34,286 nt of DNA, taken from assembly GCA_949289145.1 (NCBI GenBank), contig CASEML010000044.1:1-34286 (forward strand), in the 5' to 3' direction. The notes under the pieces were generated by a model, which searched no databases, was not told the origin of the DNA, and was given only the letters and a program-made list of their open reading frames with translations. Source of the stretch: an uncultured Eubacteriales bacterium (GTDB lineage: Bacteria > Bacillota > Clostridia > Lachnospirales > Lachnospiraceae). Made by a program: the position numbers and the translations under genes. Positions 29,337 to 34,286 of the stretch are shown piece after piece; position 1 is the stretch's first letter; each line of letters begins with the position of its first letter.

Positions 29337-30518
29337 ATGGAAAAGTTATTATTTACTTCTGAATCAGTAACGGAAGGGCATCCGGATAAAATCTGCGATC
29401 AGATATCTGATGCAATTTTAGATGCGATGATAGAACAGGATCCCATGAGCCGTGTAGCCTGTGAAACTTTAACAAACACAGGATTTATCATGGTTATGGG
29501 AGAAATCACAACGAAAGCGAACGTGGATATACAGCAGATTGTAAGAGACACTATTTGTGAAATCGGATACAATGATTCTAAATTAGGGTTTGACGGTAAT
29601 ACTTGTGCAGTTATGGTATCGCTGGATAAACAGTCACCGGATATTGCTATGGGTGTGGACAAAGCTTTGGAAGCAAGAGAAGGTGAATTGAAGGACGATT
29701 TGGACACAGGAGCCGGGGACCAGGGTATGATGTTTGGTTTTGCTACCAATGAAACAGAAGAATATATGCCTTATCCAATTGCACTGGCACATAAGTTATC
29801 CAGAAAGTTGACAGAAGTGCGTAAGGATGGCACATTGAGTTATTTAAGGCCTGACGGGAAGACACAGGTAACTGTAGAATATGATGAAAAGGGTAAACCG
29901 ATCCATTTAAATGCCGTGGTTTTATCCACTCAGCATGATCCTGATGTGACTCAGGAACAGATTCACCAAGACATCAAGAAATATGTATTTGATCCGGTGC
30001 TTCCGGCAGAATTAGTGGATGAAGATACCAGCTTTTTTATCAACCCAACGGGACGTTTTGTTATTGGAGGACCCAACGGTGACAGTGGTTTGACTGGACG
30101 TAAGATTATTGTAGATACATACGGTGGATTTGCAAGACACGGCGGTGGTGCCTTTTCAGGAAAAGACTGTACTAAGGTAGACCGTTCAGCAGCTTACGCA
30201 GCTCGTTATGTGGCAAAAAATATTGTAGCAGCAGGTCTGGCTGACAGATGCGAAATCCAGTTATCCTATGCTATTGGTGTGGCACAGCCAATGTCCATTA
30301 TGGTGGATACCAGCGGAACCGGTAAGTTATCCAATGAAAAATTGGTAGAAATCGTCCGTGAAAATTTTGATTTACGTCCAGCAGGCATTATCAAGATGCT
30401 TGATCTTCGCCGCCCAATCTACAAACAGACAGCAGCATATGGACACTTTGGACGTAATGATTTAGATCTGCCTTGGGAAAAGCTTGATAAGGTGGATGAG
30501 TTAAAGAAATATTTATAA
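29337..30518 (+). CDS. metK: S-adenosylmethionine synthetase
   Basis: A 393-aa cytosolic enzyme making SAM from methionine and ATP. Signature blocks: [19 protein letters not shown] near residue 7, the ATP/Met loop [13 protein letters not shown] (near 121-133), and [20 protein letters not shown] (near 263-282) with the catalytic Lys residues. Full length. AAGGAGG precedes the ATG. It is controlled by the SAM-I riboswitch just upstream and seems to be monocistronic. Confidence 0.97.
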
Positions 30519-30579: not shown

Positions 30580-30600
30580 TGATATGTAAGTAATAATATT

Positions 30601-30642
30601 ACTGTATCTAAGTGGATATATTTATTGATGCTTAGATACAGT
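30601..30642. repeat. Perfect 12-bp inverted repeat before the bacteriocin block
   Basis: ACTGTATCTAAG (30601-30612) and CTTAGATACAGT (30631-30642) are exact reverse complements, separated by 18 AT-rich bases. No T run follows. It lies 29 bases before the ABC transporter ATPase gene, at the point where the sequence turns more AT-rich. It may be an operator for a dimeric regulator or mark the island edge. Confidence 0.5.
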
Positions 30643-30671
30643 TTAAAGCGACAAAGGAAGAGTCAAGTGGC

Positions 30672-31406
30672 ATGGAAAATGTGGTAGAAGTTAAGTTTAT
30701 ATCAAAAGAATATAAAGAATTTTCATTGAAGAATATAACCTTTCATATAAGACAAGGCAATATAGTCGGATTGATAGGTCAAAATGGAAATGGCAAAACA
30801 ACGATAATCAGATGTTTGCTAAATTTGGTTCCGTTTAAGGGGAAAATTAATATATTCGGAATGGATAGTGTAAAATATGAAAGCCAAATAAAAGAGAGAA
30901 TTGGCTTTGTATTTTCAGAATGTCCATTTGATGAAAATTTGAATGCCTGTAATATTGGAATCATAATGAGAAGCATATATAAAAAATGGTCTGAAGAAAA
31001 GTATTCTGAATATCTTCAAAAATTCGCAATACCTAAGAAGCAAAAAATCAAAGAATACTCTAGAGGAATGCAAGTGAAATTGATGTTAGCTGTGGCATTA
31101 TCTCACGAGGCAGAGTTGTTAATATTAGATGAACCGACCAGTGGTTTAGATCCGATATTCAGAAGAGAAATTCTTGATGAATTAAAAAAATTTGTATCAA
31201 ATAAAAGAAATTCAGTATTATTTTCAACTCATATAACTAGTGATTTGGAGCAAATTGCGGATGACATTATCTTTGTATCAAAAGGAAACATTATATTTCA
31301 GGGAAGTATAGAAAAATTGCAGGAACAATATGGAAGAAATGACGAAAAATCCGTTGATTCTATTGATGATATTATGAATAAGATGCTGGACAGGGGATTG
31401 ACATGA
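30672..31406 (+). CDS. ABC transporter ATP-binding protein (BcrA/CcmA-like)
   Basis: A 244-aa ATPase: Walker A GQNGNGKT (36-43), signature YSRGMQ (129-134), Walker B LLILDEPTSGLD (149-160) and H-loop STH. The Q-loop position reads FVFSECPFDE, with no Gln, as in bacitracin-type exporters. It starts the accessory block, and its stop overlaps the next start by ATGA, so it is translationally coupled to the permease. Role: energy for an export or self-protection pump for a lipid-active peptide, by analogy with BcrA, NukF-type or lantibiotic immunity pumps. The substrate is not shown by the sequence. Confidence 0.85.
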   Translation: MENVVEVKFISKEYKEFSLKNITFHIRQGNIVGLIGQNGNGKTTIIRCLLNLVPFKGKINIFGMDSVKYESQIKERIGFVFSECPFDENLNACNIGIIMRSIYKKWSEEKYSEYLQKFAIPKKQKIKEYSRGMQVKLMLAVALSHEAELLILDEPTSGLDPIFRREILDELKKFVSNKRNSVLFSTHITSDLEQIADDIIFVSKGNIIFQGSIEKLQEQYGRNDEKSVDSIDDIMNKMLDRGLT

Positions 31407-32059
31407 AGGGATCCATAAAGTGTAGCTGGTATTATGGAAAGAAAATCATATTTTATAAAATGCTGTTTCAAGGATTAATAGTAGTGGTTGGGATAGCTTT
31501 GAATGTTGTTTTTAACAAAATCATTGATAATGAGATATGTGCCAAAATAAACGAAATGATCTATGTATTGATTTTGATGTTTAGTATAGATGTGTATATG
31601 CAGTTATATGATAAGCAGCAAAAAACAAAGGTTGATAAATATTTAGCGGCAACACCGTTGGGATTTAAAAAATACAATGATGGACTGCTACTTTTTGATG
31701 GTTTGTTTTTCATATATAGTTTTTGCATAGGTTTAGGGTATATGCTGTTAACAAGTATAATAGCTGTCGATAAAAGCAATACAATCACCTGGAAATATCT
31801 TGTAGACATTGTTTTTGCGTATGGGGCTGTAAAAATGTTACTTGTAATAACTATGAATATATTGCGGGATACTAAAAGTACTATTATAAGTTTGCTTATT
31901 TTTGCATTTATAATAAGCAATAATTTGTGGGATAGGGTTAATGTACAAGATTTGAAACTCAGTAGTATGAATATATATTATATAGTACTTATAATTTTGA
32001 TATTAGTATATATTTTTTTGAGAAGTATGTTTGAAAAATTGTGGAAAAGGAAAAGTTAA
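31403..32059 (+). CDS. ABC transporter permease (ABC-2 type)
   Basis: A 218-aa membrane protein with about six hydrophobic segments (such as MLFQGLIVVVGIALNVVF and YIVLIILILVYIFL). An intracellular stretch, YDKQQKTKVDKYLAATPLGFKKY, resembles the ATPase-contact loop of ABC-2 permeases (the ATPLGFKKY motif). It overlaps the ATPase gene by four bases. A second permease follows at once, so the pump is probably a heterodimer of the two. The family is weakly conserved, so detailed naming is not possible. Confidence 0.65.
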   Translation: MKGSIKCSWYYGKKIIFYKMLFQGLIVVVGIALNVVFNKIIDNEICAKINEMIYVLILMFSIDVYMQLYDKQQKTKVDKYLAATPLGFKKYNDGLLLFDGLFFIYSFCIGLGYMLLTSIIAVDKSNTITWKYLVDIVFAYGAVKMLLVITMNILRDTKSTIISLLIFAFIISNNLWDRVNVQDLKLSSMNIYYIVLIILILVYIFLRSMFEKLWKRKS

Positions 32060-32060
32060 A

Positions 32061-32732
32061 ATGAAAGGACTTATTTATCGTGACATACAAATAAATAAAA
32101 GAAATATAATTTTGGCTGTGTTAGTAACGCTACTTATATTTAAGACTCTGATGGATTCGGAGTTTTCAGGATATACGGAGCAAATATTTTTAATTAACAT
32201 ATATACCTTTGTAGGGGTGATTGTGATATATGCAATAGCAGAATATGTTTTTAAACCGGATGCAGTTACTAATTGGCAAATTTTTTTATATGCAACGCCA
32301 ATAACAAAGAAAATTATAGTAGGAGAAAAATATCTGTTTGATTATATATTTATTGGAATCGGAACGGTATTATCTACACTATTAATTATCATTTATTCTA
32401 TAAATAGTGGATCAGCAATGTCTTATAAGAACTTTTTTGGAATTGTTAGTGCAGTTAGTCTGATACTTACTAATAGTGCTATACATAAAATACTAGTAAG
32501 TTTGATGGGTGAAAAGTGTGCAAGTATTTTTTCAGTGATATTTATCGTGTGCGGTTTTGCTATATTAGCATTGATAAGTATATATAGTTATAATCAGCTA
32601 GGTGATAATATTGATTATATGAATACTTCTTTGACAACTACATTCATGTGTATATTATTTTTTCTCAGCATATGTGTGCATGCGATATCGTTTTTTATAT
32701 GTGTTAAAATATATAATCCATATTTAAAATGA
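32061..32732 (+). CDS. Second ABC-2 type permease
   Basis: A 223-aa membrane protein with six predicted segments. The start MKGLIYRDIQINKRNI and the loop FLYATPITKKIIVGEKYLF correspond to the same contact motif (ATP-I-T-K-K) as in the preceding permease. ATG 32061 lies one base after the previous stop; the in-frame ATG at 32031 would overlap the first permease and has no binding site. It pairs with the first permease and the ATPase as one exporter. Confidence 0.7.
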   Translation: MKGLIYRDIQINKRNIILAVLVTLLIFKTLMDSEFSGYTEQIFLINIYTFVGVIVIYAIAEYVFKPDAVTNWQIFLYATPITKKIIVGEKYLFDYIFIGIGTVLSTLLIIIYSINSGSAMSYKNFFGIVSAVSLILTNSAIHKILVSLMGEKCASIFSVIFIVCGFAILALISIYSYNQLGDNIDYMNTSLTTTFMCILFFLSICVHAISFFICVKIYNPYLK

Positions 32733-32751
32733 ATCCAGCGTGGAGGTAGAA

Positions 32752-32958
32752 ATGAAATTTTTAAGTGAAAAAGATATAAAAAGAAATTTTGTAAGTTGTA
32801 TTATGTTAGTAATGTGCCTATTCTTGGTTCCTTTTGCGAGTAATAATGGTGTTAAATGGATATTGAGTTTAGTATTAGTTTTCTTAACAATTAATTTAGT
32901 ATTGATTATTTTTAAGATATTCTGTAAATGGATAAAAAGTAAAGAGAATATTGTTTAG
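32752..32958 (+). CDS. Small two-helix membrane protein, possible immunity protein
   Basis: A 68-aa protein not recognised by family. Two hydrophobic helices (about 17-30 and 38-56) are flanked by basic ends (KDIKRN, KWIKSKEN). Such small, basic, two-helix proteins are common as bacteriocin immunity factors. It lies between the ABC transporter and the two precursor genes, which supports this but is only inference. ATG 32752 is behind GGAGG; a GTG start at 32740 would put the binding site inside the coding part. Confidence 0.5.
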   Translation: MKFLSEKDIKRNFVSCIMLVMCLFLVPFASNNGVKWILSLVLVFLTINLVLIIFKIFCKWIKSKENIV

Positions 32959-33081
32959 ATTGAAATTTGCGAAAACCAATCAGAGTCTAAAACACAAGCA
33001 TTTTTAAAAAGTACCTAGGATAAGCATATCACTTTTTGAAGGGGGCATAAACAAAAATACTTAATAAGGAGATTAAAAAAC

Positions 33082-33327
33082 ATGGAATTAGTATTAAATA
33101 ATAGATTTTGTGAAATGACACAAAACGAAGTAATGGAAATTGATGGAGGGGTTGACTGGTATAGTATTGGAATGGGTGTTTTTATGACTGCTGGTGGATT
33201 TATCGGTGGTGCAATAGGAAGTTGTGTAGGATCGGCAGGAACCATAGGTGGGGTTAAGGTAGGAACTGTAGCAGGAACAATAATTGGTAGCGCAATAGGT
33301 GGAGTTATTTATTCGATAGGAAAATAA
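33082..33327 (+). CDS. Double-glycine leader bacteriocin precursor 1
   Basis: An 81-aa precursor. Residues 1-23 form a leader that ends MEIDGG, the site where C39 peptidases cut. The mature 58-aa part begins VDWYSIGMGVFMTAGGF. It is hydrophobic and has two glycine zippers, G-x3-G-x3-G-x3-G at mature residues 15-27 and 38-50, typical of the GxxxG pairing helices of class IIb two-peptide bacteriocins. One Cys (mature residue 25). AAGGAG precedes the ATG. The neighbours are a second GG peptide and a C39 exporter. Sequence similarity to a named bacteriocin was not seen. Confidence 0.8.
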   Translation: MELVLNNRFCEMTQNEVMEIDGGVDWYSIGMGVFMTAGGFIGGAIGSCVGSAGTIGGVKVGTVAGTIIGSAIGGVIYSIGK

Positions 33328-33349
33328 TAAAAGTTAGGAGGAATACTAG

Positions 33350-33571
33350 TTGAAAAATTTTGAATCAATGACTGAAAAAGAAATTGAAGATGTTACTGGT
33401 GGACTAGTGGCTGGAGCACTAGCTGGAGCAATTTTAGGAGAAACAGTAGGACTTCTTGGTGCAACAGGATATGGTGTTGTAAAAGGAAATCTTTCAGGTG
33501 GTACATTGTATCGGGCTTATGTGACCGGAGCACTTTCGGGAGCTGCAATTGGAACTTATGCACCAGTATAA
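33350..33571 (+). CDS. Double-glycine leader bacteriocin precursor 2
   Basis: A 73-aa precursor, TTG start at 33350 with AGGAGG eight bases upstream. The leader is MKNFESMTEKEIEDVTGG, a classic double-glycine form (E at -8-like positions, then V-T-G-G). The mature 55-aa part, starting LVAGALAGAILGETVGLLG, has glycine zippers at mature residues 4-16 (G4-G8-G12-G16) and 42-50 (G42-G46-G50). It probably partners with precursor 1, 22 bases upstream, to form one two-peptide bacteriocin. The leader differs strongly from that of precursor 1, although the same C39 exporter is at hand. Confidence 0.8.
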   Translation: MKNFESMTEKEIEDVTGGLVAGALAGAILGETVGLLGATGYGVVKGNLSGGTLYRAYVTGALSGAAIGTYAPV

Positions 33572-33577
33572 GCTTTA

Positions 33578-33586
33578 TGATATAAT
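33578..33586 (+). promoter_or_regulatory. Extended -10 element before the interrupted gene
   Basis: TGATATAAT has the TGn extension and a perfect TATAAT, starting a few bases after the precursor 2 stop. It could supply the downstream genes. No clear -35 is seen. Confidence 0.35.
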
Positions 33587-33652
33587 ATATTTTAATTGAT
33601 ATTTTTGTTGAATATATAACATCTTGTCAAAATATATGAAAGGAATAAAATT

Positions 33653-34060
33653 ATGAATAAAAAATATTTTATACATTTCACATGAATTATTACATTAATC
33701 ATGTTTGTTTATGCCATTCTCTGCATCTTGGATAATACATCACTGAAAATGCCATTTTTCACATATATTGTGGCAATGATAATATATACTTTGCCGATGT
33801 CCTATATTAAAAGTAAAGAAGCAGAATTAATATGCATGGAGTTTCAAAAAGAAAGTGGAAAAGAGCAGAAACTTGAACAAATAATATTTGATAAGACAAA
33901 GAGAGAGTTGGTGGTTGAGAATAAGGGAGAAAAGATTTTTCAGAAAAAAAACAGATATTCGAAATGGTTAACTAATGAAGTTGTTATGAAAGTAGATTCC
34001 CAGAAAATATACATATTTGCACCGAGGGCGTATAAAAAATATTTTGTAAATACAAAATAA
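33653..34060 (+). pseudogene. Membrane protein gene with in-frame TGA, possible immunity gene
   Basis: An ATG at 33653 with AAGGAAT begins MNKKYFIHFT and is followed by TGA at 33683-33685. The same frame then stays open to 34060 (IITLIMFVYAILCIL... ). The natural codon was probably TGG (Trp). The joined product would be ~134 aa with two membrane helices near the N-terminus and a ~75-aa hydrophilic part (EQIIFDKTKRELVVENKGEK). Family not recognised. Its place between the precursors and the C39 exporter suits an immunity or accessory role. It may instead be translated from an internal start such as ATG 33701, giving 119 aa that lacks a ribosome binding site. Confidence 0.5.
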
Positions 34061-34094
34061 GCCATAGTAATGACAGCATCATAAGGAGAAAGAA

Positions 34095-34286
34095 ATGAAA
34101 TACTATTGCATAAAACAGCACGATATCACCGACTGCGGTGCTGCCTGCCTTGCAACCATTTCCAAACAAAACGGTTACAAAATAGGAATCACCAAAATTC
34201 GTGAAGTTGCAGGAACCGATAAGCAGGGAACTAACGCATATGGTATGATTAAGGCAGCGGAACAGTTAGGATTTAGTGCAAAGGGA
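34095..34286 (+). CDS. Peptidase-containing ABC exporter, C39 domain (partial)
   Basis: The first 64 codons of a gene cut by the window end. MKYYCIKQHDITDCGAACLA has the catalytic Cys of a C39 peptidase (DCGAACLA) and continues with GYKIGITKIREVAGTDKQG and AAEQLGF, the usual pattern for this domain. Such exporters (PCAT type) cleave double-glycine leaders and secrete the peptide. The strong AAGGAG site and its position right after the two GG peptides make it their likely processing exporter. The rest (catalytic His-Asp, membrane and ATPase domains) lies outside. Confidence 0.88.
   Translation, partial: MKYYCIKQHDITDCGAACLATISKQNGYKIGITKIREVAGTDKQGTNAYGMIKAAEQLGFSAKG

Follow-up and report, generated by a model that had tools for sequence, protein, structure and literature searches.

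Gut bacteria are predicted to encode very many unmodified bacteriocins, and IIBacFinder reported 6,238 unique mature class II sequences from the gut, according to the part of a preview article that is used here (PMC12648078). The excerpts of two further sources report 21 unmodified two-component clusters from rumen isolates (PMC13289728), and describe immunity proteins of two-peptide bacteriocins as membrane-associated (PMC8538875). In our judgement, for most of the predicted gut bacteriocins of this kind neither the partner peptide nor the immunity gene has been identified. Here, we analysed a putative two-peptide locus at the end of a stretch of 34,286 nt from an uncultured Eubacteriales bacterium of the Lachnospiraceae (GenBank assembly GCA_949289145.1, contig CASEML010000044.1). 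This stretch, "the window", is a whole contig (C44) of a genome of 2.93 Mb in 170 contigs (G000). Downstream of metK it contains a block of genes for two precursor peptides (pep1 and pep2), an ABC pump, two candidate immunity proteins, and the start of a C39 exporter. Judged from its gene content, the block is close to certain to be a bacteriocin locus, and it probably encodes an unmodified two-peptide (class IIb-like) bacteriocin. Joint action of pep1 and pep2 is likely.

Both peptide genes proposed in a first-pass annotation of the window were recovered as adjacent open reading frames (ORFs) on the forward strand. The gene for pep1 (33082..33327) starts with ATG and encodes 81 aa, i.e. a leader of 23 aa and a core of 58 aa, and the gene for pep2 (33350..33571) starts with TTG and encodes 73 aa, i.e. 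a leader of 18 aa and a core of 55 aa. Each precursor has a double-glycine leader, and the two leaders are unlike in both length and sequence. The glycine-zipper character that had been attributed to the mature parts was borne out by comparison with shuffled sequences: the pep1 core contains nine GxxxG motifs (shuffle mean 4.45, p 0.006), and the pep2 core contains seven (shuffle mean 2.67, p 0.002). A looser count, which accepts any of G, A, and S, is not above shuffles for pep2 (13 versus 10.3, p 0.12). Adjacent precursor genes with a double-glycine leader on each, and GxxxG motifs above the shuffled level in both cores, are the features expected of class IIb. The pep2 precursor scores above the Pfam cut-off of PF10439 (Bacteriocin_IIc; 28.6 versus 27.1 bits); pep1 is below all curated cut-offs (MccV, 20.1 versus 27 bits; PF10439, 15.1 versus 27.1 bits). 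For the lactobin A/cerein 7B subfamily model TIGR03949, pep2 reaches 15.9 bits and thus does not attain the cut-off of 21.5, and pep1 matches no NCBIfam model. Between metK and the end of the contig, and on C19, the probable continuation of the locus (see below), up to the next gene, none of the ORFs was recognised as a modification enzyme of the lanthipeptide or any other type.

Searches against viral contigs yielded 52 stretches for pep1 and 18 for pep2, none of which was confirmed. Plasmids gave no match for pep2 and five weak matches for pep1 (E 0.2–0.8), which were rejected, as were the matches among the sequences of solved structures, i.e. one for pep1 (a tape measure protein, E 0.036) and two for pep2 (E 0.23 and 0.88).

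Independent support for the pair came from the relatives of the two peptides. The 397 genomes of the family were searched separately with each of them. pep1 was found in five genomes at E ≤ 0.001 (its own, G277, G352, G036, and G012), and pep2 also in five, at E ≤ 0.01 (its own, G277, G378, G143, and G398). For both peptides the best foreign match is in G277, which belongs to another genus (2.1e-7 for pep1 and 5.6e-6 for pep2). In G277 the relatives of pep1 and pep2 are adjacent, have the same order as in the window, and are followed by a relative of orf3, the ORF that follows pep2 in the window (BLASTP 6e-14). Identities to the G277 relatives are 38–39% for pep1 and 34–44% for pep2. When the leaders were removed and the cores alone were aligned, with 1000 composition shuffles as reference, the window and G277 peptides had z values of 9.2 (pep1) and 8.1 (pep2), and none of the 1000 shuffles reached either score. 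The three cross-pairs of pep1 and pep2 among the window and G277 have z values of only 1.7–2.2. The G277 relative of pep1 contains eight GxxxG motifs (p 0.0002). Two further adjacent pairs, L138 and L077, are distant; the z values of their pep2 members to that of the window are 5.2 and 7.5, respectively. The pair has thus been kept together in one clear case (G277) and in two distant ones (L138 and L077), and three weak candidate pairs (L112, L090, and L087) were left out of this count. In addition, L080 (RUG297) retains a vestige of the pep2 end, together with an intact relative of orf3 and an exporter start, in the order of the window.

Several other matches were regarded as chance: that of pep1 in G036 is inside a 504-aa frame, those of pep2 in G378 and G143 contain internal stops, and that of pep2 in G398 is inside a 231-aa frame. 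In a search of 61 genomes, pep2 was found at E ≤ 0.01 in its own genome alone. A two-row pep2 profile, applied to 295 relatives of G277, retrieved G277 and one chance match, which is in a transporter-like frame of G117 and was rejected.

For comparison, we inspected the loci that contain this type of exporter, i.e. the best 80 of 429 relatives from a scan of the genome collection with the exporter start as query. By record title they are mostly from Lachnospiraceae and other Clostridia. Precursors were called by a rule that combines a strict double-glycine leader with a Shine-Dalgarno condition. At least one precursor is present in 64 of the 80 loci, and 122 of the 125 precursors in total are on the strand of the exporter. 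The same rule yielded two precursors on the reversed sequences (1.25 Mb), one, zero, and zero on three shuffles, and zero in nine stretches (115.7 kb) without this exporter. The rule is strict, and it misses pep1 of G277, pep1 of the L077 pair, and pep2 of L138; the 80 include two overlapping loci of a single contig, L103 and L114, which share one precursor and were both counted. The cores are highly diverse. By these sequence criteria, the exporter type is a marker for a large set of predicted bacteriocin loci, and the window locus is one of them.

These loci bear on an alternative, namely that pep1 and pep2 are two independent one-peptide class II bacteriocins with a shared exporter. Two or more precursors, often of different kinds, are present in 33 of the 80 loci, leaders of the pep1 type occur with other cores in L046, L047/L128, and L103/L114, and the dissimilarity of the two window leaders is also compatible with independent peptides. 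The joint conservation of both cores, their order, and the next gene in G277, together with the excess of GxxxG motifs in both window cores, argues for a two-peptide system, and we consider the one-peptide alternative unlikely.

A C39 exporter start had been predicted downstream of the pair. The 64 codons at 34095..34286 (forward strand) match PF03412 (Peptidase_C39) with 57.6 bits and include the motif DCGAAC, the Cys of which we take to be the catalytic residue of the C39 domain. As the window is the entire contig, the truncation of this gene is an assembly edge. The model TIGR01193 exceeds its cut-off twice in the same genome, once as a complete match on C2, and once at C19:4-1650, starting at a contig end (580 bits versus a cut-off of 523.85, model positions 160–707). 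Weaker ABC matches also start near contig ends, the best being C42:30-1169 with 210 bits. The 64 residues in the window are 89–97% identical to three complete exporters and correspond to their residues 1–64; the alignment of the C19 part starts at residue 174/175. About 110 exporter residues (~330 bp) between the two parts are therefore unassembled. On C19, the remaining exporter with its ATPase (L023 1-1707) is directly followed by a gene for an HlyD-like protein (L023 1704-3299), and then by a convergent gene read as macB-like. The names metK, macB-like, murA, sensor kinase, histidine kinase, and response regulator were read from the ORFs throughout, the macB-like gene without a family scan. 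Given the two complementary exporter parts, and the short distances between metK and the macB-like gene in two other genomes of the genus (88 bp in G001 and 3.0 kb in G004), the exporter gene of C44 very probably continues on C19. The exporter, of which only the beginning is visible in the window, would thus include an ATPase and have an HlyD-like partner.

The ORF between pep2 and the exporter, orf3 (33653..34060, forward strand), is the strongest immunity candidate of the block by gene order and conservation. The first-pass annotation did not mention it. The longer frame starts with ATG at 33653, has an in-frame stop at 33683, and is open from 33686 onwards; ATG 33701 yields a protein of 119 aa. 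The stop may reflect a genuine lesion, a fault of the assembly, or a start that is located further downstream. Intact relatives exist outside the window, and the copy in L080 is 51–52% identical. Relatives of orf3 stand after the pair in the window, in G277, and in the L080 relic, and the residues W-L-T are invariant across five orf3 sequences, including that of the window. The candidate belongs to no known family: neither orf3 of the window nor its G277 relative has a Pfam or NCBIfam model above cut-off. In a structure model of the relative from L080 (mean pLDDT 75), two long helices at the N-terminus accompany an alpha/beta domain, and the predicted helices would fit a membrane-associated immunity protein. 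A fold search with this model resulted in 547 matches up to E 10 and none at E ≤ 0.001, so no fold is claimed. Among the sequences of solved structures and among plasmids no match to orf3 was found, and none of five stretches in viral contigs was confirmed. Matches of orf3 in G116, G414, G200, and G139 were read as another type of protein, and a match in G179 is inside an 800-aa frame; these were discarded.

Several observations weigh against the view of a functional two-peptide locus. Clear relatives of both peptides are present in only one other genome, G277. The exporter of that genome lacks residues 45–332, its pep2 relative has GxxxG motifs not above shuffles (5 versus 3.1, p 0.15), and pep2 is absent from four other searched genomes of its genus. 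For the distant pairs, the pep1 values to the window are weak (z 3.4 for L138 and 3.8 for L077), the pep2 values to G277 are low (2.4 and 1.1, respectively), and the cross-pair of window pep1 and L077 pep2 reaches a z of 3.1; because of the low pep2 values and this cross-pair, the kinship of both pairs to that of the window is less sure. The copy in L080 is a relic. Loci of this exporter type often contain tandem precursors (28 pairs in 22 of 81 loci, the window counted), and therefore tandem position alone tells little. The region expected to contain the C39 His/Asp is inside the unassembled gap. Lastly, orf3 of the window has the in-frame stop, and relatives of orf3 are found behind another tandem pair as well, ahead of the same exporter type (L100), and without peptides in G331, in which the gene is possibly an orphan immunity gene. 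ORFs read as a sensor/regulator pair are ~2 kb away from the G331 gene (L062 6201-6638).

The stop in orf3 and the decayed copies, i.e. the exporter of G277 and the L080 locus, are also what would be expected if the pair were a signal, or a remnant without function in this strain. The precursors, the pump genes, and the assembled parts of the exporter and the HlyD-like gene are all open, and no regulator was recognised among the eight block proteins that were scanned against families. The glycine-zipper cores, with 55–58 residues, do not resemble short peptide pheromones. A signal or remnant is thus very improbable, and a two-peptide bacteriocin remains the preferred explanation.

In the proposed mechanism, the C39 domain of the exporter would cleave both precursors after Gly-Gly, and the exporter and its HlyD-like partner, on the assumption that the contigs are joined as described, would secrete the cores of 58 and 55 residues. 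By analogy to class IIb bacteriocins, the two glycine-zipper helices would pack together within the membranes of Gram-positive relatives, which would thereby become leaky. The predicted membrane protein encoded by orf3, which travels with the pair, would protect the producer, and the ABC pump, perhaps with a small basic protein of 68 aa, might aid protection by expelling the peptides or keeping them off. The assignment of these protection genes is based on gene order.

The pump and the small protein are encoded upstream of the pair on the forward strand, as had been predicted. The genes comprise the ATPase (30672..31406; PF00005, 89.8 bits), a permease-like membrane subunit B without a Pfam match (31403..32059), and an ABC-2 type permease, subunit C (32061..32732; PF13346, 60.2 bits). 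The best NCBIfam model for the ATPase is PmtA, with 248 bits and thus below its cut-off of 350. The three pump genes are followed by the ORF for the basic membrane protein, the second immunity candidate (32752..32958), which has 68 aa from ATG 32752 and 72 aa from GTG 32740. It exceeds the curated cut-off of no family; a 36.7% identical relative is present in L046 (on the same contig as L106), which also carries precursors with double-glycine leaders and this type of exporter.

Relatives of permease C were found in two of the 80 exporter loci (L069 and L067), and a relative of permease B in one (L069). In L069, from a goat colon metagenome genome, a precursor whose leader resembles that of pep1 comes first, and then the three ABC genes, the exporter, and a gene for an HlyD-like protein; the ATPase of L069 is 60% identical to that of the window, and subunit B, at the same position, 28%. 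In L067, two precursors are followed by three ABC-type genes and then by the exporter, with identities of 42% for the ATPase and 27% for permease C; the middle one of the three was not detectably alike to subunit B by BLAST. The pump thus is a recurring yet minor companion of such loci, as judged from sequence similarity. It might also be an efflux system without relation to the bacteriocin genes and next to them by coincidence, which would be compatible with the two-peptide interpretation. No pump was seen near the G277 pair, and the small numbers of permease relatives point in the same direction; the ABC genes between double-glycine precursors and exporter in both L069 and L067 argue for an association, and we regard an unrelated pump as the less probable case. 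The immunity role that the first-pass annotation had proposed for the pump therefore stays under consideration: a similar pump is beside the same exporter type in two of 80 loci, and orf3 is the stronger candidate.

The left border of the block is metK (29337..30518, forward strand), which is preceded by a SAM riboswitch (RF00162, 29154–29250); the block starts 153 bp downstream of metK. Its GC content is 30.5%, compared to 36.9% for bases 1–30518, so that the block as a whole is AT-rich, as had been noted. This does not extend to the exporter itself, with 42.7% GC for the window piece and 38.4% for the C19 part. A promoter scan was uninformative (23 sites versus 23.7 in shuffles), and no terminator was found.

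The metK site was compared among five genomes of the genus (G000 and G001–G004). Both metK and the macB-like gene are present in four of the five, and G003 has neither of them. The metK copies in G001, G002, and G004 are 91–92% identical to that of the window. In G001 the two genes are 88 bp apart, i.e. the site is empty. In G004 the 3.0 kb between them contain a 114-aa ORF and genes read as histidine kinase and response regulator. In G002, another bacteriocin-like block follows metK, and the macB-like gene is near the end of another contig. The empty site and the absence of pep2 matches from the four congeners fit a gain or a loss of the block. The suggested acquisition by transfer is one of these two possibilities; no mobile element was recognised in the eight scanned block proteins, and repeats were outside that scan.

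The interval between metK and the macB-like gene could tentatively be viewed as a recurrent site for bacteriocin modules, which are swapped as a whole with constant neighbours. This possibility is based on its contents, i.e. nothing in G001, a sensor and a regulator in G004, the pair in the window, and, in G002, a radical SAM-associated peptide accompanied by this type of exporter, and on a regulated precursor locus that follows murA-metK in an Acetatifactor relative. A variant of this view, in which exporter and HlyD-like gene are fixed at the site and the cargo is exchanged, was weakened, as the C19 part is more similar to the exporters of L069 (84.3%) and L067 (82.0%) than to that of G002 (79.2%). 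metK is rarely found near this type of exporter (in at least two of the 80 loci, one of which is the G002 contig itself); the count is a lower bound because many of the loci are short.

The G002 site (G002:C67, L038 5939-9668, on the same contig as L110) contains a 53-aa precursor-like ORF ending with WGWVYW, and a radical SAM protein of 588 aa (best model PapB, 175 bits, below the cut-off of 340), the C-terminus of which matches Peptidase_C39 weakly (20.3 bits versus a cut-off of 22). Ahead of the exporter there are also a gene for an Rce1-like protein (CPBP) and an ORF that resembles a transposase. In the uncultured Acetatifactor (L073 2369-13937), ORFs read as murA, metK, a sensor kinase, a response regulator, two tandem precursors, exporter, and HlyD follow one another, and the left neighbours match those of the window.

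Additional loci were observed in the course of the analysis. L092 (7988-9814) and L141 (8508-9866) contain seven and five tandem double-glycine precursors, respectively, with quite different cores and the same exporter type. The own genome encodes another C39 exporter at L024 6966-9203 (L024 is G000:C2:1-16000); several ORFs of this region share the leader MEMTYDGMLVMPSSYAVMDEEEM, with IL for ML in one variant, and apparent exporter fragments are interspersed. At L025 (G000:C62, 5436-10124), a C39 exporter is beside genes read as AgrC/AgrA-like, and a 75-aa precursor-like ORF is on the opposite strand; this is possibly a quorum-regulated bacteriocin locus.

The pair is real, and it probably adds an as yet undescribed member to a known kind, the unmodified bacteriocins of the class IIb-like type. 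Among the titles and abstract beginnings covered by the literature searches, none pointed to this pair or to the gene that likely protects its producer, and the many predicted class II sequences may well include the pair. Conserved gene order allowed a single pair and a single candidate immunity family to be named in this case, which provides directly testable peptides and an entry point to self-protection in bacteria other than lactic acid bacteria.

In comparison with described systems, and within the excerpts of the cited papers, the locus resembles class IIb bacteriocins, such as those of TIGR03949 (lactobin A/cerein 7B) and lactococcin G (PMC8538875), in its adjacent double-glycine precursors and GxxxG-rich cores, and also in the C39 exporter with an accessory protein and the small membrane protein alongside. 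In contrast to these systems, its immunity candidate belongs to no known family. The cores of 58 and 55 residues are longer than those of plantaricin S, which have 27 and 26 (PMC6382864). The two-component clusters of the Hungate1000 rumen collection likewise have consecutive double-glycine precursors, in which AxxxA, GxxxG, or SxxxS motifs occur, and the examples named in the excerpt are streptococcal and lactobacillar (PMC13289728). By description, the ABC genes can be likened to the transporters beside AS-48, circularin A, and aureocin A53, which act together with small membrane immunity proteins (PMC8538875). Those bacteriocins are treated there as circular or leaderless, whereas both peptides of the window have double-glycine leaders.

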